A stretch of 64,000 bases of DNA from positions 1,364,001 to 1,428,000 of the forward strand of contig NZ_PTJC01000006.1 in assembly GCF_002934605.1 (NCBI RefSeq). The letters run 5' to 3'. This stretch comes from Neolewinella xylanilytica. GTDB taxonomy: Bacteria > Bacteroidota > Bacteroidia > Chitinophagales > Saprospiraceae. A program made the position numbers and the translations under genes. Below the pieces are notes generated by a model that saw nothing but the letters and a program-made list of their open reading frames with translations, was not told the DNA's origin and ran no database searches. This document shows, one piece after another, positions 39,705 to 61,671 of this stretch (positions within the stretch are counted from its first letter, which is position 1; each line of letters starts with the position of its first letter).

Positions 39705-39706
39705 TC

Positions 39707-40726: not shown

Positions 40727-40769
40727 CCTACCAACAGACAATCATTTTCAAGTGAATCAAAGAACAGTA

Positions 40770-42660: not shown

Positions 42661-44190
42661 ATGACATATCTTCTAAAAACCCACCGGTTCCTACCACTTC
42701 TCTTCGGCTTACTTCTGTTAGTCGGACCGGTTTCTGCTCAGAATGAAACAGCGGATGACCCCACCGCCGAATCCGTCATCGAGGGAGACCCGGTCGACTC
42801 GGCAGCCGATTCGGCTACTGAACCGGCTCCCGCCGGAGACGTAGCCGCGGGCGAGGGTGACCCCGCCCTGGGCGCGGCCCTGTGGAAAGAGAACGTCTGT
42901 GGCTCTTGCCACGCCGCTAACATGGCGTCGGACATGACCGGACCCGCTCTGGGTGGTGTCGAAGCCCGTTGGGCGGGCGAACCACGCGAGCACCTTTACC
43001 GGTGGATTCAAAACTCTCAGCGCCTCATCGGCTCGGGGGAGAGCCAGCGGGCCCTGGCGCTGTGGAGCGAGTGGGCACCGACGGTGATGTCGAATTACAC
43101 AAATCTTAACGGCTCCGACATCGAGCACCTGCTCGCCTACATCGATGGTATTTATACGGGGAGCTACAATCCGGCCGGTCAGACGATCGGCCCCGCGGTA
43201 GCCGAGGAGGCCGATGAGACCGACAATACCTGGTTGTTCATCGTTCTCGGTGGCGTACTGCTGGTTCTTTCGCTTATTCTGGCCCGGGTAACCAGCAATC
43301 TGCAGTATATGGTGGAGGCCGGGGAGGGGGCTGCCCCCGCCCGGCGGACGTTGGCCCAGATCCTCACCAGCAAAGGGATGATCGCCTTCGTCCTGTTCTT
43401 AGTCGTCGTCATTGGCGGCTACACCACCGTCAACCACGCGATCGACCTCGGCCGGCAACAGGATTACCAGCCGGAGCAGCCCATCAAATTCAGCCACGAG
43501 CTCCACGCGGGGATCCAAAAAATCGAGTGTCAGTATTGTCACGACGGTGCCCGCCGGTCGAAGCACTCCGTCATTCCCGCGGTCAATACCTGTATGAATT
43601 GCCACCGGGCCATCAACTACGGTAGCCAGTACGGTACCGCCGAGATATCCAAAATCTTCGCTGCCGTAGGCTGGGACCCGCTCGAAGGAGCCTACATCGA
43701 GAACTACGATCAGATGAGCAACGAGCAGGCGCTGGGCATCTACCGGAAGTGGATCGAAAACCGCAACTACAACGAGGGCGTCGACGTGGACGACCTGGAG
43801 GAATTGATCGACGAGCAGGTGGAAGGTATCTACGGAGCCCTGACCAACGAGTATACCGGCGACAACCGGGTTCCCGGTCCGATCGAATGGACACGGATTC
43901 ACAACCTGCCCGACCACGCCTACTTCAACCACGCGCAGCACGTGACCGTAGGCAAGTTAAAGTGCCAGAACTGCCACGGCCCCGTCGAAGAAATGGAGGT
44001 GGTGTACCAGTACAGCCCGCTGAGTATGGGATGGTGTATCAATTGCCACCGGGAAACCGAGGTGCAGTTCCAGGACAACGAATACTACAACTCCTACGAG
44101 CGCTACCACGAGGAAATCCAGGAGGGAACCCGTAACGCGGTTACCGTAGAAGACGTTGGCGGACTTAACTGCCAGCGTTGCCATTACTAA
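42661..44190 (+). CDS. actA: Alternative complex III subunit ActA, hexaheme cytochrome c with fused N-terminal cytochrome domain
   Basis: A 509-residue protein of the quinol:electron-acceptor oxidoreductase ACIII. It has a signal peptide, a class I cytochrome c domain with CGSCH near residue 80, two membrane helices (LFIVLGGVLLVLSLILARV and MIAFVLFLVVVIGGYTTV), then the periplasmic multiheme part with CQYCH, CMNCH, CQNCH, CINCH and CQRCH. That gives six heme sites in all. ActA passes electrons from the iron-sulfur subunit toward cytochrome c or the oxidase. It is first in the operon, behind an excellent promoter. Confidence 0.94.
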   Translation: MTYLLKTHRFLPLLFGLLLLVGPVSAQNETADDPTAESVIEGDPVDSAADSATEPAPAGDVAAGEGDPALGAALWKENVCGSCHAANMASDMTGPALGGVEARWAGEPREHLYRWIQNSQRLIGSGESQRALALWSEWAPTVMSNYTNLNGSDIEHLLAYIDGIYTGSYNPAGQTIGPAVAEEADETDNTWLFIVLGGVLLVLSLILARVTSNLQYMVEAGEGAAPARRTLAQILTSKGMIAFVLFLVVVIGGYTTVNHAIDLGRQQDYQPEQPIKFSHELHAGIQKIECQYCHDGARRSKHSVIPAVNTCMNCHRAINYGSQYGTAEISKIFAAVGWDPLEGAYIENYDQMSNEQALGIYRKWIENRNYNEGVDVDDLEELIDEQVEGIYGALTNEYTGDNRVPGPIEWTRIHNLPDHAYFNHAQHVTVGKLKCQNCHGPVEEMEVVYQYSPLSMGWCINCHRETEVQFQDNEYYNSYERYHEEIQEGTRNAVTVEDVGGLNCQRCHY

Positions 44191-44264
44191 GAAACCTAAT
44201 CATTTTTCGCCTAGCGCGAAATCCCGGAGTGCGGGAATATTTCCCCACCCCAAAGTATAGTTGA

Positions 44265-47200
44265 ATGAAGAAGCCAATCAACAACGTCTGGATAGGTACC
44301 GACCAAATGGAAAACAGCCCCGAGTACCGGGAAGCTACTTCCGGTGAGGTCGCACAGGATCAGTTCGAAAATCCGCGCCTGGAAGCTACTCGGCGGGACT
44401 TTCTAAAATATTTAGGCTTTGGCATGACTGCGGCCACCATCGCCTCGTGTGATATCCCGGTACGTAAGGCCATTCCATACGTGTCTAAGCCGGACACGAT
44501 CGTTCCGGGTGTCGCGACCTACTTCGCGTCTACATTCGTTCAGGGGGGGGATTACGTCCCCGTCCTCGTCAAAACCCGCGAAGGTCGACCGATCAAGATC
44601 GAAGGCAACAGCATGAGCCCCATTACGGAGGGGGGAACCAGTGCCCGCGCGCAGGCCAGCGTACTTAGTATGTACGATACGAGCCGATTCGACGGTCCAT
44701 TCCGCGTACGGAACGGTCAAATCCAGCGGGCGCGCAATTACGCTGATAACGCAGGCTGGGAGATTTTGGACGGCGAAATCCGGGATCGCCTTCAGGACGC
44801 CCGGCAGATCCGTCTCGTTTCCCACACTATACTAAGCCCTTCGCTGAAGTCCGCGATCCGCGATTTCAAGGCGAGTATGCCGGGTAACACCGTTCTCGTA
44901 CAGTACGATCCGGTTTCGTCAGCCGCCCAACTGGACGCCTACGAAAGTGCGTTCGGCGTACGGGCGATTCCTCACTACCGGTTCGACAACGCTAACGTCA
45001 TCGTCGGCTTCAACTGCGACTTTCTCGGTACGTGGATCTCGCCGGTAGAATACGGTCGGCAGTACGCCATGGGGCGCAAGCCAACTACCGGACGGATGTC
45101 TCGCCACATTCAGGTGGAGAGCCACATGAGCCTGACGGGCTCGAATGCCGACAACCGCATTCTGGTCAAGCCAAGCCAACAGGGCCAGGCAATTCTGGCA
45201 CTGTATAACGCTATCGTTGGCGGTCGGGGAACGGCTAACCTCGACGCGACCACTACCGCCAAGATTCAGGCAGTAGCAACGGAGCTCCGCGCCGCCCGTG
45301 GCGAGGCGCTGGTAGTTTCCGGCAGCAATAACCTTTACGAGCAGCAGCTGGTGATCGCGATCAACCGCGCGCTCAACAGCTACGGCAGCACCATCGAAAC
45401 CGATCGGTGGAGCTACCAACGGCAGGGTAGTGACCAGGATATGGCCCGCTTCGTTACCGAGCTGGAATCCGGCGATATAGACGCGGTGATCGTGCTCGAC
45501 GGAGCGAATCCCGCTTTCGATAACCCCTGGGCAACTCGAATCCGTACGGCCCTACAGCGCAACGACCCGGAATGGGGCGATGATGATGCCTCCACGCCGC
45601 TGGATGCGGACGAAGTGGGAGACCGCAGCGAAGATGCCGACGTGGTGGACGAGAACGACCCCGGCATCGACCCCAACCTCGTCGAAGACCCGATCCGGGC
45701 AAGGTTCCGTAACATACTTACCATTAGTATGACCGGAGTTCCTACGGAGACCAGCCAACTCTGCGAATACATCACTCCCAACCATCACTACCTGGAAAGC
45801 TGGGGTGATGCCGAGGCGGTTCAGGGCGTCTATTCCCTCATCCAGCCCGCGATCGTACCGATCTTTGCCAGTGTCAACCGTTTCGGTACGCGGCAGGAAG
45901 GCGAAAGCCTGCTCATCTGGGCGCAAAGCGACCGCTACGACCCGACCGCGGAGCAGCCCTATATGAATTACGTGATGCGTAATTGGGAGGAGACCGCCTT
46001 CAGCGCTCAAAACCGCTTTTCCTCTTTCCGTTCCTTCTGGGACAGCGCGCTGCACGATGGTATTTTCAACGGACCAACATCCGGCTCTCTGACGGATTTC
46101 AACCTCGGCTATAATGCCAGTGCTCCCGTTCAGCCGCAGGAAGGCGAGGCAACGAATGAAGTAAAACCGGCCGACGCCGTCGTACGCTCCGTTCAGGATT
46201 TCGACGAATCGGATGCCGTAGCCCGGGTTACCGTAGCCGTAGAAGTAGAAAACGAGATCACCTTCTTTGAAACCGTCAACCTAGGCAACGGCGTGTACGC
46301 GGATAACCCCTGGTTGCAGGAATGTCCGGATCCCGTGACCCGAACTGTATGGGGCAACTACCTCACCATCCCGGTAACGTGGACGGGCGGAAACAGCTAC
46401 ACCGCTTACAAAGGACTTAACACCGAAGAGTACAAAGGTCGGGCGGATATCGTAGAACTGGCCATCGGCGATTTAGCAAAAGAGATTACGGTCGTTCGTC
46501 AGTTCGGCCAAATGCCAGGCACCTTCGGCCTCGCGCTTGGCTATGGACGGGAACTCGCCGGCGCCCCCGGCCGGGCCATTGGTCAGAACGTCGGAATCGA
46601 CGTTTACCCCTGGCTTCCACTGGACGATAACGGTTACGTGCAGTACTACTCCACCGAGGCACTGATTTCCGACAAAGTCGACACCGAGGAGGAATTTGCC
46701 AGCGTGCAGTACCATCACACGATGGGACTGACCACGACGAACGAGGGAGGCAAAGTCTACTATAACAACCGCACCGGAGAAACGGAAACCATCGCCGGAG
46801 AACTGGATGCCGACCAACGGCAGTACCTCGAGCCCTACAACGTGGACGAAGCGACCGTCATGGAAATCGGTAAGGGCATGCAGGGCGGACTGACCGACCG
46901 TTCGATCATCTTCCAGGGTAAGTTCTCGGAACTCGGTGAGCTGGAAGAGCACATCGCCGAACGACGTGCCGAAGCTCAGCACCTCAACGAGCAAACCCTT
47001 TACCCTTACGAGGAATACGTAAAAGACATCTACAGCCAGGGTCACTGGTGGGCGATGCACGTGGATCTCAACGCCTGTATCGGTTGTGCTGCCTGTGAAG
47101 TTGCCTGTGTAGCCGAGAACAACGTTCCGGTAGTTGGTAAGTACGAGGTTTCCCGCCACCACGAAATGAAATGGCTGCGCATCGACCGGTATTTCTACGG

Positions 47201-47810
47201 TGACGTAGAGAACCCCCGGGCGGTTTACCAACCCATGATGTGTCAGCACTGCGATAACGCACCCTGCGAAAACGTCTGCCCGGTTAACGCTACCCAACAC
47301 AGCGACGAGGGTGCCAACCAAATGATCTACAACCGCTGTATCGGTACGCGTTACTGCGCGAACAACTGTCCGTACAAAGTGCGGCGTTTCAACTGGCTGG
47401 ATTACACCACGGCCGACCTGTTCAGCAGCAACGAGCCCGAACTGGCCAATGAGGATCTGCCATTCGGCGCGGACAACCTTACCCGCATGGTGCTGAATCC
47501 TGACGTTACCGTTCGCAGCCGTGGGGTGATCGAGAAGTGTAGCTTCTGCGCCCAGCGACTTCAGGCAGGCAAACTCACCGCGAAAATTGAAAAGCGGGCC
47601 CTCCGCGATTCGGACGTTCGCACGGCTTGCCAGACGGCCTGTCCCACCGGGGCGATCACCTTCGGTGACCGGAATAATCAGAACGGTGACATTCCACGGA
47701 AACTGCGCAACCCGCTGAACTACCTGGCGCTCGAAGAAGTCAACACCCAGTCGTCGGTATTCTACGCCGCCCGGGTACACAATCCGATCGAAAGCCTCTC
47801 CGAAGCCTAA
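44265..47810 (+). CDS. actB: Alternative complex III subunit ActB, molybdopterin-oxidoreductase-like with iron-sulfur domain
   Basis: A 1181-residue periplasmic subunit. A Tat signal (RRDFLK at residues 43-48, then GFGMTAATIASC) is followed by a molybdopterin-oxidoreductase-like region, which in ACIII lacks the cofactor, and by a C-terminal ferredoxin domain with CIGCAACEVAC, CQHCDNAPCENVC, CIGTRYCANNC and CSFCAQR...CQTAC. These bind three 4Fe-4S and one 3Fe-4S cluster in known complexes. Electrons from quinol at ActC pass through it to ActA. An acidic stretch (DDDASTPLDADEVGDRS) near residue 445 looks like a surface insertion. Confidence 0.95.
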   Translation: MKKPINNVWIGTDQMENSPEYREATSGEVAQDQFENPRLEATRRDFLKYLGFGMTAATIASCDIPVRKAIPYVSKPDTIVPGVATYFASTFVQGGDYVPVLVKTREGRPIKIEGNSMSPITEGGTSARAQASVLSMYDTSRFDGPFRVRNGQIQRARNYADNAGWEILDGEIRDRLQDARQIRLVSHTILSPSLKSAIRDFKASMPGNTVLVQYDPVSSAAQLDAYESAFGVRAIPHYRFDNANVIVGFNCDFLGTWISPVEYGRQYAMGRKPTTGRMSRHIQVESHMSLTGSNADNRILVKPSQQGQAILALYNAIVGGRGTANLDATTTAKIQAVATELRAARGEALVVSGSNNLYEQQLVIAINRALNSYGSTIETDRWSYQRQGSDQDMARFVTELESGDIDAVIVLDGANPAFDNPWATRIRTALQRNDPEWGDDDASTPLDADEVGDRSEDADVVDENDPGIDPNLVEDPIRARFRNILTISMTGVPTETSQLCEYITPNHHYLESWGDAEAVQGVYSLIQPAIVPIFASVNRFGTRQEGESLLIWAQSDRYDPTAEQPYMNYVMRNWEETAFSAQNRFSSFRSFWDSALHDGIFNGPTSGSLTDFNLGYNASAPVQPQEGEATNEVKPADAVVRSVQDFDESDAVARVTVAVEVENEITFFETVNLGNGVYADNPWLQECPDPVTRTVWGNYLTIPVTWTGGNSYTAYKGLNTEEYKGRADIVELAIGDLAKEITVVRQFGQMPGTFGLALGYGRELAGAPGRAIGQNVGIDVYPWLPLDDNGYVQYYSTEALISDKVDTEEEFASVQYHHTMGLTTTNEGGKVYYNNRTGETETIAGELDADQRQYLEPYNVDEATVMEIGKGMQGGLTDRSIIFQGKFSELGELEEHIAERRAEAQHLNEQTLYPYEEYVKDIYSQGHWWAMHVDLNACIGCAACEVACVAENNVPVVGKYEVSRHHEMKWLRIDRYFYGDVENPRAVYQPMMCQHCDNAPCENVCPVNATQHSDEGANQMIYNRCIGTRYCANNCPYKVRRFNWLDYTTADLFSSNEPELANEDLPFGADNLTRMVLNPDVTVRSRGVIEKCSFCAQRLQAGKLTAKIEKRALRDSDVRTACQTACPTGAITFGDRNNQNGDIPRKLRNPLNYLALEEVNTQSSVFYAARVHNPIESLSEA

Positions 47811-47906
47811 CACCAAGAACCCGCAACAACAACTGAACCGATTTGCTTTAACCTCCGAAGGGACCGCCCGTCACCGTTTATCGCAATTCGAAAATCGTAA
47901 ATCTTT

Positions 47907-49433
47907 ATGAGTGGACATATAGCTCCGGTACGTCAGCCGCTGGTCACGGGTCACAAGACTTACCACCAGATTACGGAAGACATCTGCCGTCCGACGGAAA
48001 CCGCGCCTTCGCTGTCCTGGATCGTTACGTTCATCATCTCGGTGATCTGTTTAGGGCTGTTCGCCTTCAGCGTTGCCTGGACCATCTGGGTCGGCATCGG
48101 CTCCTGGAACCTGAACCGGACGGTCAACTGGGGCTGGGACATCACCAACTTCGTGTGGTGGGTGGGTATCGGTCATGCGGGTACCTTGATTTCGGCCATC
48201 TTGCTCCTTTTCCGTCAGAAGTGGCGCACGGGAGTGAACCGAGCCGCGGAAGCGATGACCATTTTTGCGGTTATGTGCGCCGGTCAGTTCCCGCTTATTC
48301 ACATGGGACGGCTTTGGTTGGCCATCTTCATCTTTCCGTATCCGAATACGCGCGGCCCGCTGTGGGTGAACTTCAATAGTCCGTTGCTCTGGGACGTGTT
48401 CGCTATCTCAACCTACTTCACGGTGTCCCTGCTATTCTGGTACGCCGGTCTGGTGCCTGACCTCGCCACCGTACGCGACCGGGCGGTCGGTTTACGCAAG
48501 AAGATTTACAGCATCGTCAGCTTCGGCTGGAACGGTTCCGCTAAACACTGGCAACGGTGGGAGAGCTTGTCGCTGATCCTGGCCGGACTGGCTACGCCGC
48601 TGGTACTTTCGGTACACACGATCGTATCGTTTGACTTCGCTACTTCGGTCATTCCGGGCTGGCACACGACGATTTTCCCTCCTTACTTCGTGGCGGGAGC
48701 TATTTTCTCCGGCTTCGCGATGGTGCTTACACTGATGCTCATTGCCCGTAAAGTGCTGCACCTGGAAGACTACATCACCATTGAGCACGTGGAATCGATG
48801 AACAAGGTAATCCTGCTGACCGGATCCATCGTCGGGGTGGCTTACCTCACGGAGCTCTTCATCGCCTGGTATTCCGGTTACATTTACGAGCAGTTTGCTT
48901 TCCTGAACCGCGTACTTGGTCCTTACTACTGGAGCTACATCGGTATGATGCTTTGTAACGTGGTATCTCCACAGATCTTCTGGAGTCGCCGGTTGCGCAC
49001 GAGCCTGTTCTGGACCTTCTTCATGTCAATCTTTATCAACATCGGCATGTGGTTCGAGCGCTTCGTGATCATTGCTACCACGCTGGCGAGGGATTACCTC
49101 CCTTCCAGCTGGAGCTACTACGTACCGACCTGGGTCGAAATTTGCATCTTCATCGGAACGCTGGGCCTGTTCTTCACGCTGTTCCTGATTTTCACCCGGG
49201 TAGCTCCGGTAGTAGCGATCGCGGAGATCAAGAGTATCCTCAAAACCGCGGGTGATCAGTACATCGGTCCGAACGCGCTGGCCCATGCCCACGCAGGAAC
49301 CCGGCATACCGCACATGCTACGGGTGCGCACCACTCCACCACCCACGGGAAAACCACGCAACCCGAAGTCAATGACATTCCGGCCGGTGGTACGGTAGAT
49401 ATCGACGGCGAGAACGACAAACCTCTAGACTAA
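47907..49433 (+). CDS. actC: Alternative complex III subunit ActC, NrfD-like quinol-binding membrane protein
   Basis: A 508-residue integral membrane protein of the NrfD/PsrC family with about ten helices, which binds quinol in ACIII. Recognisable parts are [36 protein letters not shown] and [15 protein letters not shown]-like segments. The last 50 residues form a His-rich tail ([17 protein letters not shown] at 460-476) not needed for the membrane fold. It follows actB by 96 bases. The His-rich tail recurs in other subunits of this block. Confidence 0.95.
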
Positions 49434-49454
49434 CACGCTTAACGCGACCATATC

Positions 49455-50057
49455 ATGGCAACAATAAGAATTGAAAGGGAAGGCGGAGAAGTCACCGGCG
49501 GTAGTCCGGAGGAGTCATACGTGCGCGCCGGTCAACGGGAAATATTATTCGGGCTGTACGACGATGAGGTAAAGCTGCTGGACGCGGTTCGGGCAGCCAA
49601 TGACGCTCACCTGGACATCGACGATGTATACACTCCCTTTCCGGTGCACGGATTAGACCCGCTGCTCGGTCTGGAGGAAAGCAGGCTGCACATTGCCGGC
49701 TTCATTTTCGGCACCATCGGCTGTCTCGTAGGTTTCGGTTTCATGACCTGGGTGTTCACCCGCGACTGGCCGATCATCTTCGGTGGTAAGCCGTACTGGT
49801 CCGTGCCGGCCTTTATTCCCATCACCTTCGAATTGACCGTGCTCTTCTCGGCCGTCGGTATGGTGACCGTTTTCTACATCATCAACGGACTCGGTCCGGG
49901 CGCCGAGCCGCGTCGACTGCACGATCGCATCACCGATGATAAATTCTGCATTGCCTTCGATGTTACGGAGCTAGGGACATCCGAAGTGGACCGTTTACGG
50001 GACTACTTCGACCGGACCGGCGTCGAAACCGTACACCAAAAAACGGTAGCTGCCTAA
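49455..50057 (+). CDS. actD: Alternative complex III subunit ActD (DUF3341)
   Basis: A 200-residue protein with two membrane helices (IAGFIFGTIGCLVGFGFMTWVF and AFIPITFELTVLFSAVGMVTVFY) separated by a short loop, and an N-terminal cytoplasmic part with LFGLYDDEVKLLDAVRAAND typical of DUF3341. ActD is a structural subunit that packs against ActC and ActF. It starts 21 bases after actC and ends 26 bases before actE. Confidence 0.94.
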   Translation: MATIRIEREGGEVTGGSPEESYVRAGQREILFGLYDDEVKLLDAVRAANDAHLDIDDVYTPFPVHGLDPLLGLEESRLHIAGFIFGTIGCLVGFGFMTWVFTRDWPIIFGGKPYWSVPAFIPITFELTVLFSAVGMVTVFYIINGLGPGAEPRRLHDRITDDKFCIAFDVTELGTSEVDRLRDYFDRTGVETVHQKTVAA

Positions 50058-50083
50058 GTTGGCACTGCCCCCAATTCTACCGC

Positions 50084-50998
50084 ATGAAATTGCAACATCT
50101 GATCATGTCCCTCCTATTCGCGGTCTTGCTGACAGCATGCTCCGATGCCGAAGGCGAGTTTACCGGGAGTGAATACATGCCCGATATGGCCCACTCCATT
50201 GCCATGGAGGCCAATACGTACAACTACTACTATTACAATACCTGGGACGACCGTTCGACCATCAAATTGGGAGAACTGGCTTATCCGAAGTACACCGTAG
50301 ATGGTACCGTGCCCCGCGGCTACGCCGGACAGTACATCCCCGGTATGCAGCCCCCCCGGACCCTCGACGACGCGGAAAGCATGCGGGGTTCGATCGTAGA
50401 CAACGATTATCCGAATGCCATCGCTATTCCGACTAACGGTCACGTTCCATACTACTACGACGATACCCCGGAGGGCCGCGAAGCTGCCCTTGCGGATTTT
50501 GCGTCCAACCCATTCCCGATTACCGAGGAGGGGCTAGTGCGGGGCGGTAACCTCTACCAAATCTTCTGTGCCATCTGTCATGGGGAAGCCGGTGATGGCC
50601 TCGGCTACATTTACGATACCGACAAGAATCCCCAGGCAAAGTATCCCGCGGCTCCGGCCAGCTTTCTTCGGCCGGAGTTTGTGGAGGCTAGCAACGGCCG
50701 GTACTATCATGCCATTATGTACGGATACAACGTCATGGGTGCCTACGCCGACAAGATGAACTACGAAGAGCGTTGGCAGGTCATTCACTACATTCGCGCC
50801 CTGCAAGCCCGGGACACCGAAACGGAATACAACCAACAAGTGAATACCCTCAACGCGGGATTCGGTACGCCCGCCGGGGAAATCGATCCACTGGCCCAAC
50901 AGGCTACGGATACCGAAACCCAGACCGGAGAGGCGCTGATCAGCGAAGCTGCTACCGACGAGGAAGGGGATTCCCAGTCCGGAATGCAAAAGAAATAA
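50084..50998 (+). CDS. actE: Alternative complex III subunit ActE, monoheme cytochrome c lipoprotein
   Basis: A 304-residue lipoprotein (LLFAVLLTAC) with one heme site CAICH near residue 165 and a likely axial Met in the following YGYNVMGAYADKM. The family sits on the periplasmic face and hands electrons to the oxidase or a soluble cytochrome. The C-terminal 40 residues are rich in Asp, Glu, Gln and Thr with no predicted fold. Confidence 0.93.
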   Translation: MKLQHLIMSLLFAVLLTACSDAEGEFTGSEYMPDMAHSIAMEANTYNYYYYNTWDDRSTIKLGELAYPKYTVDGTVPRGYAGQYIPGMQPPRTLDDAESMRGSIVDNDYPNAIAIPTNGHVPYYYDDTPEGREAALADFASNPFPITEEGLVRGGNLYQIFCAICHGEAGDGLGYIYDTDKNPQAKYPAAPASFLRPEFVEASNGRYYHAIMYGYNVMGAYADKMNYEERWQVIHYIRALQARDTETEYNQQVNTLNAGFGTPAGEIDPLAQQATDTETQTGEALISEAATDEEGDSQSGMQKK

Positions 50999-51050
50999 GA
51001 AACCCAACCATCCGGGCCGGCCTGCCGGTCCCCACCCGAATATCCCGTAC

Positions 51051-52715
51051 ATGGAGACTTTCGTTTTTTCTTCCCGCGCCAAGATTACCACACTCTCAAT
51101 GATGGGGGTTGGTCTATTGTGCCTCCTGATCACCTTCTTCGCAGATGGAGGTGAGGGGCACCACATGCGCTTCTGGACCAACTTCCTGCACAACTCCGTT
51201 TTCTTTGTCGGCATCGCAGCCATAGCCGGTTTCGCGTTGGCCGCCTTCACCACGGCTTATGCGGGGTGGTTCGTGCAGTTCAAGCGAGTATGGGAGAGTT
51301 TTGGCACCTTCCTCCTTCCCGGCCTGTTTTTGTTGGGGGTGATTATGGTCGGACTATTTACCCACGGCCATCACCTGTACCACTGGAATGACGATGCTGC
51401 CGTGGCTTCCGACGCGATTCTGGAGCACAAATCTTCCTTTCTCAATAAGTACTGGTACACCTTCGGCACCATCGGGTTCGTCGGGTTTTGGTACTTTATG
51501 ATTGGGAAGATGCGCAATATTAGCATCGCGGAAGATCTCGACGATCGCGATAACGAGTTCACCTACTACAAACGCTATAAGAAATACGCGGCGATCTTTC
51601 TGCCGATCTTCGGATTCACTTCCGCCGCTATGATATGGCAGTGGATCATGTCGATCGACAGCCACTGGTATTCGACCATGTTTGCCTGGTACGCCTCGGC
51701 CTCGCTGTTCGTAGCCATGACGGCCCTGACCATCATGCTGCTCATTTACCTGAAGTCACGGGGGTATTTTCCCGGGGTGAATGAAGAACACTTTCACGAT
51801 CTGGGTAAGTACCTCTTCGCGATCTCCATCTTCTGGACCTACGTGTGGTTCAGTCAGTTCATGCTCATCTGGTATGCGAACGTAGGAGAGGAAACCATTT
51901 ACTTCCGCGAGCGGATGCAAAACTACCCGGTACTGTTTTGGACCAACCTGGGGCTCAATTTCCTCTTGCCCTTCTTTGTGCTCATGCGCAACGATACAAA
52001 GCGTAAAATGGGAACCCTGTTTTTTGCCTCCGCGCTCGTCTTCTTCGGTCACTGGTTGGACTTCTTCTCCATGATCAAGCCCGGTGCCCGCCTTAGCCTT
52101 ATCGAAATGACCGAGCACGCTGGCGGTCACGCGGAAGGGGAGGAGCACGCTGAAATGGGTGCCGCCCACGCGGAGGAGGACGAATTCGGCCACGATCAAC
52201 ACGCCGAAGGCCACGATGCAGACGAAACCGCTGCCCTTGCGCAGGGTGAGGTGGTTAGCGAGGGAGACAACCTCCAGGATCCCGCGGGGCGCAACGAGGA
52301 TGCGATTGATAACGAGAATATCCACTTCGACGCATCCGAGGAAGAAGAAGGCGTACCAGTTGCTAACGAATTCCGCGGTGGACCGCCCGATACCCGTATG
52401 GGAGGCATTGACGAGCTCGCATCGGCTACCGACCGCACGGATGCGGATGTCTTCGAACCCAACCACTTCATCCAGGAGGAAAATATCGGCGACGATGAGA
52501 TGCTTGGTCACCTAGAAGCCGCTGGCGGACACAGTGAGGCGCTGAGCGTCCTCGGGTTCAAGTCTGGCTACACCTTACCCGGTCTGCTGGAAATCGGCAC
52601 CTTCATCGGCTTTCTTGGGGGCTTCCTGTTCTTCGTGCTGAGCAAGCTCAGCACCGCGAGAATGGAGCCGAAGCACGACCCATACTTGGAGGAAAGCCTG
52701 CACCACCACACCTAG
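51051..52715 (+). CDS. actF: Alternative complex III subunit ActF with a large His/acidic insertion
   Basis: A 554-residue NrfD-like subunit. Residues 1-350 carry about nine membrane helices of the ActF type (TTLSMMGVGLLCLLITFF, MSIDSHWYSTMFAWYASAS, FLLPFFVLMRND). An insertion of about 150 residues (352-505) rich in His, Glu, Asp and Ala (HAGGHAEGEEHAEMG, HAEEDEFGHDQHAEGHDAD) separates them from the last helix (LLEIGTFIGFLGGFLFFVL). Homologs have a much shorter loop there as far as I know. The insertion is hydrophilic and could bind metal. It is the last ACIII gene; the cox operon starts 130 bases on. Confidence 0.93.
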   Translation: METFVFSSRAKITTLSMMGVGLLCLLITFFADGGEGHHMRFWTNFLHNSVFFVGIAAIAGFALAAFTTAYAGWFVQFKRVWESFGTFLLPGLFLLGVIMVGLFTHGHHLYHWNDDAAVASDAILEHKSSFLNKYWYTFGTIGFVGFWYFMIGKMRNISIAEDLDDRDNEFTYYKRYKKYAAIFLPIFGFTSAAMIWQWIMSIDSHWYSTMFAWYASASLFVAMTALTIMLLIYLKSRGYFPGVNEEHFHDLGKYLFAISIFWTYVWFSQFMLIWYANVGEETIYFRERMQNYPVLFWTNLGLNFLLPFFVLMRNDTKRKMGTLFFASALVFFGHWLDFFSMIKPGARLSLIEMTEHAGGHAEGEEHAEMGAAHAEEDEFGHDQHAEGHDADETAALAQGEVVSEGDNLQDPAGRNEDAIDNENIHFDASEEEEGVPVANEFRGGPPDTRMGGIDELASATDRTDADVFEPNHFIQEENIGDDEMLGHLEAAGGHSEALSVLGFKSGYTLPGLLEIGTFIGFLGGFLFFVLSKLSTARMEPKHDPYLEESLHHHT

Positions 52716-52844: not shown

Positions 52845-54362
52845 ATGACTACGCTGATCGTCTTATTCTGTATCGTCTTACTCCTGTTGATCATCTTTCA
52901 GATCGCTCGGGTCCGCGACTTGGCCAAACAGCTGCGGGGAAGCGAGGAGGTGGAGGCTACCAATGTCGCCAATCAGGCCCGGGGTTTGATGGTATTCATG
53001 GCCCTGTTGCTGATCATCACCACCGCATCCGCTTATTACTTTAAGAACTACATCTTGGGTTTTGGCCCGCACGAATCCGCCTCCGTTCACGGTGCGGAAA
53101 TCGACAGCATGATGAAGTGGACGCTTGCCGTCACTTACGTGGCTTACATCCTGACCCATATTTTTCTGTTCTACTACGCTTACAAGTATCGGACCCGTAA
53201 GGGCCACCAGGCACAGTACATCAGCCACAACAATACCATCGAACTGGTATGGACCGGCATCCCCGCCATTGTGATGACCTTCTTGGTGGTCGGTGGTCTG
53301 GATGCCTGGAACACCATCATGAGTGACGTCGGGGATGATGACAACTACATGGAGATCGAAGCCACTGGGTTTCAGTTTGCCTGGACCATGCGTTACCCCG
53401 GTCCGGATGGTTTATTAGGTCGCAAAGATTTCCGGCTGATCAGCGGAGCAAACCCGCTGGGCCAGGACTGGACCGACCCGAAGAATCACGATGACATCGT
53501 AGTGAACGATGTTACGCTTCCGGTAGACCAGAAAGTTCGGGTACGTATCACGGCCCGTGACGTACTGCACGATTTCTACCTGCCTCAGTTCCGCGTTAAA
53601 ATGGACGCCGTACCCGGGCTACCGACCTATTTCGTCTTCACCCCCCGTAAAACGACCAAGGAGTGGCGTCGGGGGCTGTCGGAGTATGCCGAATACCAGG
53701 AAATCGACCCGGCTTCGGATGAAGGACTTCCCTTATGGCAAACCCAGGACTTCGAGCTTGCCTGTGCCGAACTCTGCGGTATCGGTCACTATTCCATGAA
53801 GCGTACCGTAACGATCATGGAGCAGGAAGACTTCGATCAGTGGTATTCCCAGCAGACCAGCTACTACGAAGGTAACGTGAAGGGCACCGATGACGATCCG
53901 CTCTATATGGCGGAAATGAAAGAGCAGCGGGACGCATTTACCCAATTACTCAGCCAGTCGATTGCCACCCCGAGTCTCGAAGACAACGTTGTTCCACTAC
54001 AGTACGTACGTTTTCAGGAAGCGGGAGAATTGTCCGAGGAGAGCTTTGCCCAATTGGATAACATGATTTCCTTCCTCGAAGAAAACCAGGGCTACTCGGC
54101 GATGATCATGGGACGCTCGGACAATGCGGGTGACGAAGACGTTACCGAAGACCTGAGTGGTGTACGTGCCCAAGCGGTTCGCCAGTACTTAATTGATAAT
54201 GGTATCGATGCCGAACGGCTTGGTAGCCGTGGATCCAGTGGAACTACTTCCACCGCGACAAACCTCACCGAAGGCGGTGAGAATCGCAACCCCAGCATCG
54301 AAATTTATATTACAGAGGGAGAAGTCTCCGAGCCCCAAACGGCTAATCTTTCCTCGAAGTAA
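52845..54362 (+). CDS. coxB: Cytochrome c oxidase subunit II fused to an OmpA-like peptidoglycan-binding domain
   Basis: A 505-residue subunit II. Residues 1-160 carry four membrane helices, two more than the classical protein. The cupredoxin domain has the CuA ligands His242, Cys307, Glu309, Cys311, His315 and Met318 (CAELCGIGHYSM). After residue 380 comes an OmpA/MotB-like domain: LQYVRFQEAGELSEESFAQL, GRSDNAGDEDVTEDLSGVRA, VRQYLIDNGIDAERL and a last strand NPSIEIYITEG. Asp426 and Arg441 match the pair that holds diaminopimelate in OmpA. The fusion could tie the oxidase to peptidoglycan. Two residues of the NRRVEI box are changed. Confidence 0.93.
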   Translation: MTTLIVLFCIVLLLLIIFQIARVRDLAKQLRGSEEVEATNVANQARGLMVFMALLLIITTASAYYFKNYILGFGPHESASVHGAEIDSMMKWTLAVTYVAYILTHIFLFYYAYKYRTRKGHQAQYISHNNTIELVWTGIPAIVMTFLVVGGLDAWNTIMSDVGDDDNYMEIEATGFQFAWTMRYPGPDGLLGRKDFRLISGANPLGQDWTDPKNHDDIVVNDVTLPVDQKVRVRITARDVLHDFYLPQFRVKMDAVPGLPTYFVFTPRKTTKEWRRGLSEYAEYQEIDPASDEGLPLWQTQDFELACAELCGIGHYSMKRTVTIMEQEDFDQWYSQQTSYYEGNVKGTDDDPLYMAEMKEQRDAFTQLLSQSIATPSLEDNVVPLQYVRFQEAGELSEESFAQLDNMISFLEENQGYSAMIMGRSDNAGDEDVTEDLSGVRAQAVRQYLIDNGIDAERLGSRGSSGTTSTATNLTEGGENRNPSIEIYITEGEVSEPQTANLSSK

Positions 54363-54397: not shown

Positions 54398-56254
54398 ATG
54401 GCTACAGCAGTTCTTACGACGGCCCCACTAAAGCGCGACGACGCGCTGATTGAGGAATTTGGTTACGACGATCACTTTCACGATCACCACCATGGTGATA
54501 AGTACCGGTCCAACTTCGTCAGCCATTACGTTTTCAGCATGGACCATAAAATGATCGCCAAACAGTTCCTGATTACGGGAATGGTGTGGGCGGTTATTGG
54601 TGCTTTGATGTCCCTCGTTTTCCGGATGCAGCTCGGTTTTCCCGAGGAGAGTCTGGCGTGGATCAAGCCGGTACTAGGAAAATGGATCACCGTGAACAGT
54701 GACGGGATCGGTACGCTGCAGCCTGACTTTTACTATGCTTTGGTAACCATGCACGGTACCATCCTGGTCTTCTTCGTCCTTACGGCCGGCCTATCCGGCA
54801 CCTTCAGCAACCTGCTCATCCCCTTGATGATCGGTGCACGCGATATGGCTTCCCCGTTGTTGAACATGCTTAGCTACTGGTTCTTCTTCGTATCCGGTAC
54901 GATCATGTTCGCTTCCTTGTTCTTATCTACCGGCCCCTTTGCGGGAGGTTGGGTAGCGTATCCGCCGCTTTCCGCGCTTCCGCAGGCAATGGACGGCTCC
55001 GGTGCGGGCATGACGCTTTGGACGATCTCGCTGGTATTGCTCGTTGTATCGCTGCTGCTGGGTGGTATCAACTACATCACCACCGTACTGAACCTACGTA
55101 CCAAGGGTATGAGCATGTGGCGCCTGCCGCTTCCGATCTGGGCCTTCTTCGTTACGGCGATTCTGGGTCTGCTCTCCTTCCCCGTACTCACCTCCGCCTT
55201 TTTCCTACTGATGCTGGATCGCGGCGTGGGCACAAGCTTTTACTTGAGCGACATCTACATCGGCGGCGCTGCCCTCGACCACGTGGGCGGTAGTCCGATC
55301 CTCTACCAGCATTTGTTCTGGTTCCTGGGGCACCCAGAGGTGTACATCATCATCCTGCCCGCCTTCGGTATCGTGTCCGAAGTACTTTCGGTCAATAGCC
55401 GCAAGCCGATCTTCGGTTATCAGGCCATGGTGTTCTCCATCCTGGCCATTGCCTTCCTGGCCTTTATCGTATGGGCACACCACATGTTTATGTCCGGTGT
55501 CAACCCCTTCATCGCTAACTTCTTCGTAATCTTCACCCTGATCATCGCCGTACCCTCGGCGGTTAAGGTTTTCAACTGGATCGCGACGCTTTACGGGGGC
55601 AATATCCGGTTTAATCCGGCCAGCCTCTTTGCTATCGGCTTCGTATCCATGTTCATCTCGGGTGGATTGACCGGTATCTGGTTAGGTAACTCCGCCCTCG
55701 ATATTCAGCTGCACGATACCTACTTCGTAGTTGCCCACTTCCACATCGTGATGGGGGTAGCAGCCTTCTTCGGAATGTTCGCCGGTATCTACCACTGGTT
55801 TCCCAAGATGTACGGTCGCTTCATGAACAAGACGCTTGGTAATCTGCACTTCTGGGGTACCATGATCGGTGCGTACTGTGTTTTCTGGCCGATGCACTAC
55901 CTCGGTATGGCGGGTGTTCCCCGTCGGTACTACAGTTTCGACAACTTCCAGGCCTTCGGTCACTTCGATGGTATGAACAAGTTCATTACTATCGCTGCGA
56001 TCCTCACGTTCGGATTTCAAATGCTGTTCGTGATCAACTACTTCTACAGCATCTGGAAGGGCAAGAAAGTGACCGAGCGCAACCCATACCAGGCCAATAC
56101 TCTTGAATGGACCACGCCGATTCTTCCCGGACACGGCAACTGGCCCGGTAAACTCCCAACAGTACAGCGTTGGGCGTATGACTACAGCAAGGACGGTATC
56201 GACCACCTTTCTCAACTCCAGCCACCGCTGGAGGAAGAAAGCGCAGCGCATTAA
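54398..56254 (+). CDS. coxA: Cytochrome c oxidase subunit I
   Basis: A 618-residue heme-copper oxidase subunit with 12 core helices. Ligands and channels are clear: GHPEVYIIILPAFG (CuB His and cross-linked Tyr), WAHHMFMSGV (two CuB His), and DTYFVVAHFHIVMG (heme His pair). It reduces oxygen to water and pumps protons, and is of the aa3/type A kind. The N-terminus carries a His-rich stretch (FHDHHHGDKY at 27-36) before the first helix. It follows coxB by 35 bases. Confidence 0.97.
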   Translation: MATAVLTTAPLKRDDALIEEFGYDDHFHDHHHGDKYRSNFVSHYVFSMDHKMIAKQFLITGMVWAVIGALMSLVFRMQLGFPEESLAWIKPVLGKWITVNSDGIGTLQPDFYYALVTMHGTILVFFVLTAGLSGTFSNLLIPLMIGARDMASPLLNMLSYWFFFVSGTIMFASLFLSTGPFAGGWVAYPPLSALPQAMDGSGAGMTLWTISLVLLVVSLLLGGINYITTVLNLRTKGMSMWRLPLPIWAFFVTAILGLLSFPVLTSAFFLLMLDRGVGTSFYLSDIYIGGAALDHVGGSPILYQHLFWFLGHPEVYIIILPAFGIVSEVLSVNSRKPIFGYQAMVFSILAIAFLAFIVWAHHMFMSGVNPFIANFFVIFTLIIAVPSAVKVFNWIATLYGGNIRFNPASLFAIGFVSMFISGGLTGIWLGNSALDIQLHDTYFVVAHFHIVMGVAAFFGMFAGIYHWFPKMYGRFMNKTLGNLHFWGTMIGAYCVFWPMHYLGMAGVPRRYYSFDNFQAFGHFDGMNKFITIAAILTFGFQMLFVINYFYSIWKGKKVTERNPYQANTLEWTTPILPGHGNWPGKLPTVQRWAYDYSKDGIDHLSQLQPPLEEESAAH

Positions 56255-56346
56255 TTCACCCACGCTTCCGACGGGGGGCGACTGACTACACGCCGAGTGC
56301 ACGAAATTTACTTTTCGGACACGGAATGCGTCGTTGTCATCTACAT

Positions 56347-57258
56347 ATGAAAAGCTCAACCACAAGTCAGGCCGTTACCTCGGATTTCAGCCGTACGCTG
56401 AATGATCTGTCCGCCCTGGTCAAGTTTCGATTATCCGCTACGGTCGTACTGTCCTCGGTGCTGGCCTACCTCGTCGCGCTCGGCGCCGGTGGCGTAAGTT
56501 GGTGGGCCATTGCCGTGCTCACGGCCGGTGGCTTCCTGACGACTGCCGCGGCCAACATTCTTAACGAAGTACTGGAGAAAGACTTCGATCGAGAGATGGC
56601 ACGTACCCGTCAACGGCCGCTAGCGGAGGGACGTATGTCTACGAGCGACGCGCTGCTAATGGCCGGTTTCTCCAGCATGGGAGGTATCGCCTTGCTGGCG
56701 CTCTTCAATCCGTGGACCGCTATTCTGGGCATGCTCTCCCTTATGAGCTATGCTTTCGTGTACACACCGCTTAAGCGGGTGGGACCCGTAGCCGTACTGA
56801 TCGGCGCTATTCCCGGTGCGCTGCCCGCCCTCATCGGCTCGGCGGCGGCGGAAGGCGCCATTACGGGACTGGGGGTGACGCTGTTTACTATCCAATTCTT
56901 TTGGCAATTACCCCACTTTTACGCGATCGGTTATCTGGGAGCGGATGATTACCGCCGTGCCGGCTTTAAACTCGTTCCCGAATTGGAGCAGGGTGGGGTG
57001 GATGCTAAAACCTTGGGCCGGGACGCTATCCTGGCTACGATAGCCCTGATTCCGCTTGCCGTTTTACCTTATTTCCTTGGTATAACGACCTGGTGGGCAG
57101 CCGCACTGGTGATCGTACTGAGCGTAATTTTTCTCCGTTTTGCCCTTTCTTTTTATCGTCGTCCGCAACGGACCACGGCCCTTCGAATGATGTTTTTCTC
57201 ATTCGCTTACCTACCCCTGGCATTTACGATTTTCTGGGCCGGTAAAATGTTACTGTAA
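56347..57258 (+). CDS. ctaB: Protoheme IX farnesyltransferase (heme O synthase)
   Basis: A 303-residue UbiA-family membrane prenyltransferase that makes heme O, the precursor of heme A for the oxidase. The two prenyl-diphosphate-binding regions are visible: NEVLEKDFDREMARTRQRPL and DDYRRAGFKLVPEL, with hydrophobic helices between. The start at 56347 (MKSSTTSQ) is preferred over an ATG at 56326. Its TAA overlaps the next ATG (TAATG), coupling it to subunit III translation. Confidence 0.93.
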   Translation: MKSSTTSQAVTSDFSRTLNDLSALVKFRLSATVVLSSVLAYLVALGAGGVSWWAIAVLTAGGFLTTAAANILNEVLEKDFDREMARTRQRPLAEGRMSTSDALLMAGFSSMGGIALLALFNPWTAILGMLSLMSYAFVYTPLKRVGPVAVLIGAIPGALPALIGSAAAEGAITGLGVTLFTIQFFWQLPHFYAIGYLGADDYRRAGFKLVPELEQGGVDAKTLGRDAILATIALIPLAVLPYFLGITTWWAAALVIVLSVIFLRFALSFYRRPQRTTALRMMFFSFAYLPLAFTIFWAGKMLL

Positions 57259-57857
57259 TGAGTGCAATTGAAACAACCCTGGATCCCCGAATGGAAGCCT
57301 TGTCCCGGCGTAGTCGGCTGCATCCGTTAAAAATGCTGATGTACATCGGACTGGGTAGCCTGGTCATGATGTTCGTCGCGCTTACGAGTGCCTATATCGT
57401 ACGCCGTGCTTCGGGAAACTGGCTGGAATTTTCTATCCCGACCATTTTCTACGTCAACACTTTGGTCATCGTCGTTAGTAGCCTAACTTTGCACGCCGCA
57501 TACGGGGCCTTCAAACGGGAGGCCATGGGTGTGTACAAGGGTCTACTACTGGTAAGCTTCCTGCTCGGCATAGCCTTCGTTGTGCTACAGTTTATGGGAT
57601 GGCAAGATTTGGCCGCCCAGGGCGTACCGCTGAAGATAAATCCTTCCGGAGACTTTATATACGCGATCAGCTGGCTGCATGCCCTGCACGTAGTTGGTGG
57701 CCTGGCAGCCTTGTTTGTCACCGTTCTGGTAGCGTACATTCGCCGCATTCGTAAAACCCCCGCCCGCCAATTACGGCTGGAGCTAACGATGATCTACTGG
57801 CATTTTGTAGATATTCTCTGGATTTACCTCATTATATTCCTTAGCCTCCAACGCTAG
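57258..57857 (+). CDS. Cytochrome c oxidase subunit III-like, short form
   Basis: A 199-residue protein with five membrane helices (LMYIGLGSLVMMFVALTSAYIV, IFYVNTLVIVVSSLTLHAAY, GLLLVSFLLGIAFVVLQFMGW) ending in the subunit III pattern LHALHVVGGLAALF and TMIYWHFVDILWIYLIIFL. The conserved WHFVD and Glu-free helix II place it in the CoxC/CyoC family. It starts on the last base of ctaB and lies 31 bases before a second, longer subunit III gene; the two may both be in the complex. Confidence 0.9.
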   Translation: MSAIETTLDPRMEALSRRSRLHPLKMLMYIGLGSLVMMFVALTSAYIVRRASGNWLEFSIPTIFYVNTLVIVVSSLTLHAAYGAFKREAMGVYKGLLLVSFLLGIAFVVLQFMGWQDLAAQGVPLKINPSGDFIYAISWLHALHVVGGLAALFVTVLVAYIRRIRKTPARQLRLELTMIYWHFVDILWIYLIIFLSLQR

Positions 57858-57888
57858 CTCGTTAGCAATTAACTAGAACCTTACCGAC

Positions 57889-58932
57889 ATGACCGAAGAA
57901 AGAGATACGGACATCATTATCGCCGAGGACGAAAAGCCCGAGTTAAATAGTGATTGGTCCGGTGGTGACCGGAAGCCCTTCCGTACTTCCTACGGGAAGC
58001 TGATGATGTGGTACTTCCTCCTTTCCGATGCCTTCACCTTCGCCGGATTCCTGATCTCTTACGGCGCGCTCCGCTTTAGCAGCCCGAGCTGGCCCGTTCC
58101 CGATAAGGTGTTTGCCACCGTTCCCTTCGGTATCAACGAGCTATTTCCAAACGGGGAAGCTCCCTTGATCTTCGTGACCTTCATGTCGTTCCTCCTCATC
58201 GTGAGTTCGGGCACCATGGTGCGTGCGGTACAGGAGGGCGCCCGGGAAAACAAACGGGGGGTCGTATTCTGGATGTTACTGACCGTAATCGGCGGGCTAG
58301 GCTTCCTCGGCTGTCAGGCCTGGGAATGGACGAATTTGATCGCAACGGAGAACATGACCGTTACTACGAATCCTTTCGGAACCTACACGGAAAACGGTTT
58401 CTACCTCGATCCGGAAACCGGCGAGGTCACCGATGAGCGGGTACTGGAGGGAGAAACCTACCTCCTTCACTTGGCGGGTGCGGAACACGGCGAAGAAGCA
58501 GCCGGAGACCATGGCGAAGAAGGCGAGCATTTCGCTTACGCCACTACGCCGGGTGATTATCCCGGATACGTCGTTGACGGTCAGCGTCCGGACGGTTCTG
58601 GGGTAGCCGGAGCAAAGCCATTCATACACCGCAAATACGTCGTCGCCGACGAAGAAGGTAATCTGCTGACGAACGAAGCCGGCAATCCCGTTCAGTTTAC
58701 CCAGGAGTTCGGTCCCGTTGCCTTTGGTGCCCTGTTCTTCGGTATCACTGGTTTCCACGGTTTTCACGTAGCTACCGGGGTCATCTTCCTACTCATCATC
58801 ATGATCAATGCGGGCGGCGGGGTATACGTAGCTCGTCAGAACGGTTACGAGATGGTCGAAAAGATTGGTCTGTACTGGCACTTCGTGGACCTTGTTTGGG
58901 TATTCGTATTCCTGGTATTCTACCTCCTCTGA
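57889..58932 (+). CDS. coxC: Cytochrome c oxidase subunit III with a hydrophilic insertion
   Basis: A 347-residue subunit III. Helices flank FAGFLISYGALRF, FVTFMSFLLIVSSGTMVRAV, FGALFFGITGFHGFHVATGVIF and YWHFVDLVWVFVFLVFYLL, the last with the family WHFVD. Residues about 153-275 are a hydrophilic, His/Glu-rich insertion (AEHGEEAAGDHGEEGEH) between two helices. Such an insertion is absent from the companion short subunit III, suggesting a role outside the membrane. The gene begins 31 bases after the short form. Confidence 0.9.
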   Translation: MTEERDTDIIIAEDEKPELNSDWSGGDRKPFRTSYGKLMMWYFLLSDAFTFAGFLISYGALRFSSPSWPVPDKVFATVPFGINELFPNGEAPLIFVTFMSFLLIVSSGTMVRAVQEGARENKRGVVFWMLLTVIGGLGFLGCQAWEWTNLIATENMTVTTNPFGTYTENGFYLDPETGEVTDERVLEGETYLLHLAGAEHGEEAAGDHGEEGEHFAYATTPGDYPGYVVDGQRPDGSGVAGAKPFIHRKYVVADEEGNLLTNEAGNPVQFTQEFGPVAFGALFFGITGFHGFHVATGVIFLLIIMINAGGGVYVARQNGYEMVEKIGLYWHFVDLVWVFVFLVFYLL

Positions 58933-58988
58933 TCCGGCACCCGATAATCGAATTATTCTCCACTACCGTGGAATAAAGCATTTACGTT

Positions 58989-59414
58989 ATGGCACAACAT
59001 CTCAGCTACGAAGAATCGGTTCGTGGAGTATGGAAGGGATTAGCCCTTCTTGCGCTCGTCACCCTCGTAGAGGTTGCTCTCTCCCTCCTCAAGGCCGCGG
59101 AGTGGGCAGAAGACATCCGTATTCTGATTTACGTCGCATCCTTGCTGATTATCGGCCTGTCGGTATACAAGGCGTACTTCATCATTTACGAATTCATGCA
59201 CATGGGGTACGAGGTGAAAGGACTGGCGATGACCGTACTGCTACCTACTATGTTGCTCATTTGGGCATTGATCGCGTTTTTCAACGAAGGCGATGCCTGG
59301 CGTAAAAGCCGGGAAAAGGTAATCTACAAGGATCAGCTTGAGGTGCCTACCGGTGATGATGTCGGCGCCATTTCTCCCCGGGAAGACGACCTTCTACTCG
59401 CACTTCCCGCTTAG
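58989..59414 (+). CDS. Cytochrome c oxidase subunit IV-like protein
   Basis: A 141-residue protein with three membrane helices (GLALLALVTLVEVALSLL, IRILIYVASLLIIGLSVYKAYFII, AMTVLLPTMLLIWALIAFF) and the segment EFMHMGYEVKG, as in prokaryotic subunit IV. It stabilises the oxidase. It follows the longer subunit III by 56 bases. Confidence 0.87.
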   Translation: MAQHLSYEESVRGVWKGLALLALVTLVEVALSLLKAAEWAEDIRILIYVASLLIIGLSVYKAYFIIYEFMHMGYEVKGLAMTVLLPTMLLIWALIAFFNEGDAWRKSREKVIYKDQLEVPTGDDVGAISPREDDLLLALPA

Positions 59415-60788: not shown

Positions 60789-61028
60789 ATGAAAAACTTG
60801 CTGCCCCTTTCGCTGCTTTTCCTGCTATTCCTTTTCGGCGCTCCCGAGTTGATGGCCCAGTGCCCGATGTGTCGCGCCACTGCGGAAAGCAACCTGGCCA
60901 ACGGAGGAACGGAAGGGCAGGGGCTCAACCAGGGTATTCTTTACCTCCTCGGTATGCCCTACGTGCTGGTAGGTACGGTTGCCTTCATTTGGTGGCGGAA
61001 CCGGAAGAAGGATCATGAGATGGCTTAA
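60789..61028 (+). CDS. Small membrane protein with CPMC motif, end of cox operon
   Basis: A 79-residue protein with a signal peptide or first helix (LSLLFLLFLFGAPELMAQ), then CPMCRATAESN, and a second helix (ILYLLGMPYVLVGTVAFIWW). Short proteins of this kind commonly end Bacteroidota cox gene clusters. The CxxC in the periplasm could handle copper or thiols for the oxidase, which is a guess. Its 3' end overlaps the convergent MntR gene by 44 bases. Confidence 0.8.
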   Translation: MKNLLPLSLLFLLFLFGAPELMAQCPMCRATAESNLANGGTEGQGLNQGILYLLGMPYVLVGTVAFIWWRNRKKDHEMA

Positions 61029-61671
61029 CCACGAGGAGTTGTTGTACCGTCGTTTCCGGTAGGGTCGTTTCCTTCCCGCCATAACTTAATCGCACGCTTT
61101 TGTCGTAGGCGTCTATCGCCTCGATTTTCATTAGTGTTCCCAAGCGCAACCCCTTTTCGTCGAGATACCGGAGGAAATCGGCCGATGAGTCGTTCAGTCC
61201 GGCCAGTACGACCACCGCCCCGGCTTGACATTCCCCCAGCCGCTCGCGGTCGGTACCGCGCAAGTTGCCTTCCCGGTCGGGGATAGGCGAACCGTGGGGA
61301 TCGTAATTCGGGGAACCTAATAACTGATCCATTTTCTCGAAGAAGGCGGGACTGTCGATGTGCTCGATCTGTTCCGCTATGGGGTGTACTTCCTCCCAAC
61401 CAAAGCCCATTTTCTTTACCAGGTACATTTCGGTCAGCCGGTGTTTGCGCACCACCAGGGCCGCCTGACGACGCCCCTGCTCGGTAAGCCGAAGGGGCTG
61501 GTATTTCTGGTAGTGAATCAGCCCCCTTTCACTCAGCCTGCGAATCATGTTGTTTGCCGTGGGTTTGCTTACCCCCAATTCCGTACTCAAGTCCGATATC
61601 GTCACGGCACCCGACTCCCGGGTAAGGGCGAGCATTGCCTTGAGGTAGTTTTCAACTGTGGGTGTTGCCAT
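60985..61671 (-). CDS. mntR: DtxR/MntR-family metal-dependent repressor
   Basis: A 228-residue repressor: N-terminal winged helix (VTISDLSTELGVSKPTANNMIRRL), dimerisation domain with metal site, and C-terminal FeoA/SH3-like domain (AGAVVVLAGLNDSSADFLRYL). The site AEQIEH has Glu where DtxR has Cys, the arrangement of manganese-responsive MntR. It would repress uptake when Mn(II) or Fe(II) is plentiful. It diverges from a TonB-dependent receptor, and a palindrome at 61705-61722 lies between them. Confidence 0.9.
   Translation of the reverse strand: MATPTVENYLKAMLALTRESGAVTISDLSTELGVSKPTANNMIRRLSERGLIHYQKYQPLRLTEQGRRQAALVVRKHRLTEMYLVKKMGFGWEEVHPIAEQIEHIDSPAFFEKMDQLLGSPNYDPHGSPIPDREGNLRGTDRERLGECQAGAVVVLAGLNDSSADFLRYLDEKGLRLGTLMKIEAIDAYDKSVRLSYGGKETTLPETTVQQLLVVKPSHDPSSGSATK

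Follow-up and report, generated by a model that had tools for sequence, protein, structure and literature searches.

The window, by which we mean the entire 64,000-nucleotide stretch of Neolewinella xylanilytica DNA analysed here, carries genes for ACIII and for a cytochrome c oxidase in one run, with coxB sitting between the act genes and coxA. The features of this run are listed below.

42661 to 52715, forward strand: the ACIII genes upstream of coxB, namely actA, actB, actC, actD, actE and actF
50084 to 50998, forward strand: actE, the mono-heme cytochrome c of ACIII, without an OmpA domain in the window
52845 to 54362, forward strand: coxB, cytochrome c oxidase subunit II with a C-terminal OmpA-like domain, 505 residues, ATG start
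53070 to 53288, forward strand: COX2_TM domain, residues 76–148 (Pfam PF02790, E 1.8e-9)
53352 to 53621, forward strand: COX2 periplasmic CuA domain, the stretch matched by Pfam, residues 170–259 (PF00116, E 7.6e-12)
53763 to 53798, forward strand: second half of the CuA motif, C307 to M318 (CAELCGIGHYSM), with residues invariant in alignment A3
53880 to 53993, forward strand: linker, residues 346–383, with a helix predicted at 352–374 by the models
53994 to 54320, forward strand: OmpA_C-like domain, residues 384–492 (Pfam PF00691, tail model and PDB matches)
54398 to 59414, forward strand: coxA (COX1), a heme O synthase-like ORF, two COX3-type genes and a COX4_pro gene

The act genes were named by position and CxxCH motifs (actA), Fer4 domains (actB), NrfD (actC), PF11821 with E 1.5e-53 (actD), cytochrome c (actE) and position (actF, which has no Pfam match). 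We take the heme O synthase-like ORF, named without a scan, to be CtaB. The genome contains one full-length match to the window CoxB and two COX1 genes. Both ActF (51051–52715) and the second COX3-type protein (57889–58932) contain stretches rich in His, Glu and Asp, such as HAEGEEHAEMGAAHAEEDEFGHDQHAEGHD in ActF, which are possibly metal-binding or linker insertions.

A preliminary description of this locus had proposed that CoxB possesses a complete CuA domain followed by an OmpA-like domain, and both parts of the proposal hold. The Pfam scores of the window protein lie above the cut-offs for COX2_TM (38.1 bits against 22.8) and COX2 (45.7 bits against 22). The NCBIfam CoxB model TIGR02866 gave 140.5 bits (E 5e-41), slightly below its cut-off of 147.7, and we therefore regard the protein as a divergent but clear CoxB. 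The six motif residues H242, C307, E309, C311, H315 and M318, presumably the CuA ligands, are all present and do not vary among the 26 rows of A3, an alignment of 26 chosen tail-bearing CoxB proteins including that of the window. The CuA domain of CoxB faces the periplasm. Behind it, the OmpA model PF00691 matches residues 395–481 of the full protein at 41.8 bits (cut-off 27.2; E 1.4e-10), and the same model matches all 26 proteins of A3. Scanned alone, in a profile search of the kind proposed beforehand, the window tail again returns the OmpA_C-like domain, with E 7.8e-12. In the genome as a whole there are 14 OmpA-domain matches, 13 of them above the cut-off, the CoxB tail included. CoxB has no match in PADLOC.

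Structure prediction, also proposed beforehand, leads to the same assignment. An AlphaFold model of residues 346–505 built from five sequences reached a pTM of 0.75 and a mean pLDDT of 74, and showed the beta-alpha-beta-alpha-beta-beta arrangement of OmpA_C-like folds. The model of full-length CoxB, likewise from 5 sequences, had a poor core (mean pLDDT 48) and was usable in the tail only. A Foldseek search of the PDB with the tail model identified 106 matches at E ≤ 0.001. Judged by their titles, the best 50 of these 106 are of the OmpA, OprF, Pal, MotB, YiaD, YfiB and PA0833 types, or are Dot/Icm, TagL/TssL and PorE types or complexes containing such proteins; one listed match, 4zhw, is titled only as a bacterial signalling protein. 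Among the matches are OmpA with diaminopimelate (3td4), OmpA with the stem pentapeptide (3td5), PorE (6top) and TagL (5m38 and 7bba). Taken together, the predicted structure and its PDB matches indicate that the tail is a genuine OmpA_C-like domain.

The survey of CoxB homologs that had been suggested together with these analyses demonstrated that the tail is widespread in the family and no one-off; its conservation there means that the OmpA match in the window is no chance hit. The query found a match in each of the 150 genomes that were sampled from the family of the window. Fourteen were left uncounted, 10 for a weak best match (E no better than 2e-16, the level reached by OmpA-type matches) and four because coxB was broken into partial matches. 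Among the remaining 136 genomes with a readable coxB, 102 carry the tail, including two remnants and one frame-shifted gene (G043), and 34 do not. We take the family code f1 of the survey to denote Saprospiraceae in the wide sense; the taxonomy given with the surveyed loci is Lewinellaceae, the named members being Lewinella and Neolewinella, and the fusion occurs in four such named records. Within the genus of the window, 19 of 21 genomes have coxB, and all 19 bear the tail. At least six genomes from four other families of the order carry the tail as well (G200 and G310 of family f8, G172 and G184 of f4, G167 of f19, G256 of f18). Elsewhere in the order and class, most of the CoxB matches listed are without it. 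A profile search of 395 genomes of the class returned no tail-covering match outside the family among the matches listed, and the class and phylum searches returned none outside the order, again among the matches listed; the lists at class level were sorted by score, and the survey was confined to the phylum of the window. Long frames in other families of the class were considered as additional tails and discarded, as their extra length is N-terminal and 14 such proteins (L206–L219) end at 318–367 residues.

The two remnants (L139 in G048 and L140 in G148) retain only a faint OmpA signal (18.9 bits and 17.8 bits, respectively), and each terminates in a run of hydrophobic residues. One genome (G149) has two CoxB genes, L155 and L159, both with an OmpA tail. 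Seven tail-less CoxB proteins (L178, L190, L192, L195, L197, L199 and L200) have other C-terminal extensions of low-complexity or coiled-coil appearance.

The genomic position of the fusion is nearly constant. ActF lies upstream in 114 of the 116 tail-bearing family loci that have 900 bases of room, and CoxA lies downstream in 119 of 119. The distance from the CuA methionine to the first OmpA strand is 73 residues in 65 of 126 tails and 69 in the window, with a range of 59–95.

We compared the tail with OmpA-like domains for which peptidoglycan contacts are known. PorE, a type IX secretion protein from a Bacteroidetes species, has an OmpA_C-like domain in which the side chains of Asp576, Asn584 and Arg591, spaced at +0, +8 and +15, bind the stem peptide (PMC7192894). 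In TagL, Asn494, Leu497, Ser498, Arg501 and Ala502 are reported to be required for cell wall binding, and mutation of the Asn to abolish the interaction with the wall (PMC8253398). By spacing, the PorE contacts correspond to positions 426, 434 and 441 of the window CoxB, and the TagL residues to positions 434, 437, 438, 441 and 442. The window protein has Asp426, Thr434, Leu437, Ser438, Arg441 and Ala442 at these positions. The positions of most interest are the following.

54120 to 54122, forward strand: Asp426, peptidoglycan-contact position, kept (D in 122 of 127 tails)
54144 to 54146, forward strand: Thr434, third contact (Asn in PorE and TagL), lost in the window (N in 122 of 127 tails)
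54165 to 54167, forward strand: Arg441, peptidoglycan-contact position, kept (R in 125 of 127 tails)
54288 to 54296, forward strand: residues 482–484, NPS where the family has NRR (N in 124, R in 118 and R in 121 of 127)

The 127 distinct tails are the hits (E < 1e-3) of a tail model derived from the surveyed set, and they include the two remnants, one frame-shifted protein and five proteins from other families. The Asp-Asn-Arg triad is complete in 120 of them, and the median tail keeps all 25 columns that are conserved in at least 90% of the tails. The observation in the preliminary description that Asp426 and Arg441 are retained was accurate: both occupy peptidoglycan-contact positions, and their spacing of +15 equals that of Asp576 and Arg591 in PorE. 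The triad of the window is nonetheless incomplete, with Thr at position 434.

The genomes in which CoxB has no tail revealed a second site for the same domain. In 7 of 20 operons from tail-less genomes, an OmpA domain is located at the end of ActE, and all seven ActE proteins that were scanned with Pfam contain cytochrome c together with OmpA. Among 65 operons (these 20, 40 further ones, L034–L037 and the window), the domain is found on CoxB only in 31, on ActE only in 11, on both in none and on neither in 23, the last group including the two remnants and one genome from another family. We then combined the CoxB survey with a search of the 150 family genomes using an ActE-OmpA protein, counting remnants as CoxB tails. 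In the 134 genomes with both genes listed, the domain is on CoxB only in 101, on ActE only in 12, on both in none and on neither in 21; thus ActE bears it in 12 of the 33 genomes where CoxB is tail-less and in 0 of the 101 where CoxB is tailed. Counted by genus (n = 102), the states are CoxB only in 76, neither in 16, ActE only in 8 and mixed in 2. As a check for tails hidden in long ActE frames, ActE was also read directly from the DNA of 97 family genomes, giving CoxB only in 65, ActE only in 12, neither in 20 and both in 0, or 12 of 32 tail-less against 0 of 65 tail-bearing genomes. Four genomes with a CoxB tail and an unusually long ActE frame, which had looked like candidates for both (G075, G079, G106 and G108), were rejected on this direct reading because their ActE ends are of low complexity, similar to the extensions of some tail-less CoxB proteins, and without an OmpA domain. 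In the two genomes with remnants, ActE is likewise without it. The triad Asp-Asn-Arg is present in each of the 11 ActE tails that were examined, and the motif NRRTE in 10 of them.

By plain count over the 134 genomes, uncorrected for kinship, the exclusion between the two sites is strong (Fisher 8e-9). The genomes are related, and well-supported branches provide only seven independent pairs, in which ActE differs in 0.4 on average, so that this comparison has no power and the exclusion is unproven against shared ancestry. On a rapidly built tree, we count 7 changes of state for the ActE tail, of which well-supported branches force at least 2, and 15 for the CoxB tail, of which they force at least 7. 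A tree of the tails themselves (114 columns) interleaves CoxB tails, ActE tails and genomic paralogues with weak support. The distribution suggests that an anchor of the ACIII-aa3 supercomplex could occupy either partner, CoxB or ActE. Any such anchor is inessential, since the domain is absent from both proteins in 21 of the 134 family genomes, a class defined by a search for OmpA domains only.

The common picture of respiratory complexes is that they diffuse in the membrane, singly or as supercomplexes. An additional C-terminal domain on CoxB has a precedent in caa3-type oxidases, where it occupies the same position as in the window CoxB; there it is a cytochrome c passing electrons, unlike the OmpA-like tail. 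The oxidase of Rhodothermus marinus is of this caa3 type, its C-terminal fusion being a cytochrome c and no wall-binding domain. A periplasmic OmpA-like wall anchor on an inner-membrane protein is likewise familiar from the MotB stators. The TagL/TssL proteins of type VI secretion are described as inner-membrane proteins whose periplasmic OmpA-like domain anchors the machine to the wall (PMC8253398). The TagL/TssL and MotB machines exert force and need an anchor, whereas no mechanical load is known for the oxidase. PorE, a lipoprotein of the outer membrane, belongs to a secretion machine; the window tail, by contrast, is part of an oxidase in the inner membrane, and Thr replaces Asn in it. An ACIII-aa3 supercomplex has been proposed from complexes purified from Flavobacterium johnsoniae and R. 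marinus (PMC8552683). The partners there are like those in the window, with ACIII feeding an aa3-type oxidase in an ACIII-(c)aa3 assembly. In the passages considered here, neither the oxidase nor ActE is described with an OmpA-like domain; the term ompA occurs 11 times in the article, keywords included (PMC8552683). The titles and beginnings of abstracts listed by searches of open-licence literature reported no CoxB-OmpA or ActE-OmpA fusion, which is weak evidence as most subscription papers lie outside that scope.

We consider that the tail of the family serves as a peptidoglycan anchor of the ACIII-aa3 assembly, with a probability of roughly 0.6. This reading fits because the triad is strictly kept, the linker is of near-constant length, the place beside ACIII is constant and the domain alternates between two partners. 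According to this model, an inherited OmpA_C-like domain would tether the periplasmic face of the supercomplex to peptidoglycan: a pocket of Asp426, Asn434 and Arg441 would hold diaminopimelate, the linker would span the gap from the CuA domain to the wall, and the anchor might be sited on either CoxB or the ActE subunit of ACIII. Its purpose could be to fix the position of the oxidase or to couple the supercomplex to the geometry of the envelope. We are evenly divided on the broader proposal of a wall-anchored machine with one anchor, on CoxB or ActE and never on both in the examined genomes, which a few lineages are converting or discarding. If true, the respiratory chain would be immobilised on the cell wall, and an anchor in the oxidase or in its electron-donor complex would localise respiration and couple it to the wall. 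Relatives with the domain on CoxB, on ActE or nowhere exist in nature.

The suggestion in the preliminary description that the oxidase, and possibly its supercomplex with ACIII, is fixed to the wall thus stands as the best reading for the family, with the triad complete in most tails and the domain swapped to ActE in others, and becomes doubtful for the window protein itself. The window tail keeps 18 of the 25 conserved columns and has lost 7, with N434T accompanied by alterations of H424, T425, G465, P469, R483 and R484. Its sister, Lewinella sp. IMCC34191, a relation with full support, keeps all 25. Against an outgroup of three congeners (L005, L039 and L040), the window tail shows 23 changes of its own and the sister tail 1 (binomial p 3e-6); for the core the corresponding numbers are 7 and 4 (Fisher p 0.026 for the contrast between tail and core). 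Nine of the 23 fall at 424, 425, 434 and 464–469, which we place, by analogy with TagL, in two of its three crevice-forming loops. Aligned with the DNA of the sister, that of the tail shows a single gap, of 3 bases, ahead of the stop codon, and the other frames of the window tail conceal no canonical motif; with the frame intact, the divergence is therefore real. Because the third contact is replaced, other positions are altered and the tail has changed faster than that of the sister, the retention of Asp and Arg is a weak argument for the window protein. The model and the alignment together indicate a domain with its fold kept and its pocket partly eroded. Peptidoglycan binding by this particular copy seems rather doubtful from its residues, and binding has probably been weakened, lost or redirected to another ligand. 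The pocket is eroded in the window species and intact in its sister, which makes the two a natural pair for comparison.

The erosion could mean that the window tail is a fossil tether, now without a role and drifting toward loss, which would be compatible with a working tether elsewhere in the family. The excess of unique changes (23 against 1) and the loss of 7 of 25 conserved columns are what such drift would leave behind, and 34 of 136 family genomes without the tail, together with the barely recognisable remnants in G048 and G148, also speak for it. Several features count against it: the reading frame has stayed open, the tail retains Asp426, Arg441 and 18 of the 25 conserved columns, and AlphaFold continues to predict its fold. 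In the comparison of the window with its sister, the tail has a dN of 0.40 and its synonymous sites are saturated, which allows no dN/dS ratio and makes the tail unlike a freely evolving sequence. Eroded tails occur in 4 of 19 congeners, corresponding to two changes on the genus tree, and the other three, which eroded separately and lost Asp426, also have intact frames. On balance we find a roleless tail unlikely.

Less probable still, though worth weighing, is that the OmpA fold has been reused as a protein-protein module, for example for assembly or cohesion of CoxB with ACIII, with no tether to the wall. The domain occurs nearly always in the ACIII-cox operon and on two partners of one assembly, as would suit such a module, and tails of the window lineage keep the fold and lose pocket residues, which is expected if the pocket is unselected there. 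Assembly alone would not demand the contact triad, however, and the triad is kept in 120 of 127 CoxB tails and 11 of 11 ActE tails. An artefact of assembly or frame, in which coxB was wrongly fused to a neighbouring ompA-type gene, has nothing in its favour and is refuted by the fusion in 102 of 136 family genomes and in four named records and by the intact frame, leaving it a negligible chance.

Outside the ACIII and oxidase genes, two neighbours of the run were named by eye. Positions 34936–42356 resemble an arabinan-use cluster, in which a SusD-like lipoprotein gene precedes several glycoside-hydrolase-like ORFs. An ORF resembling a metal-dependent repressor lies downstream of the oxidase genes, at 60985–61671 on the opposite (reverse) strand.
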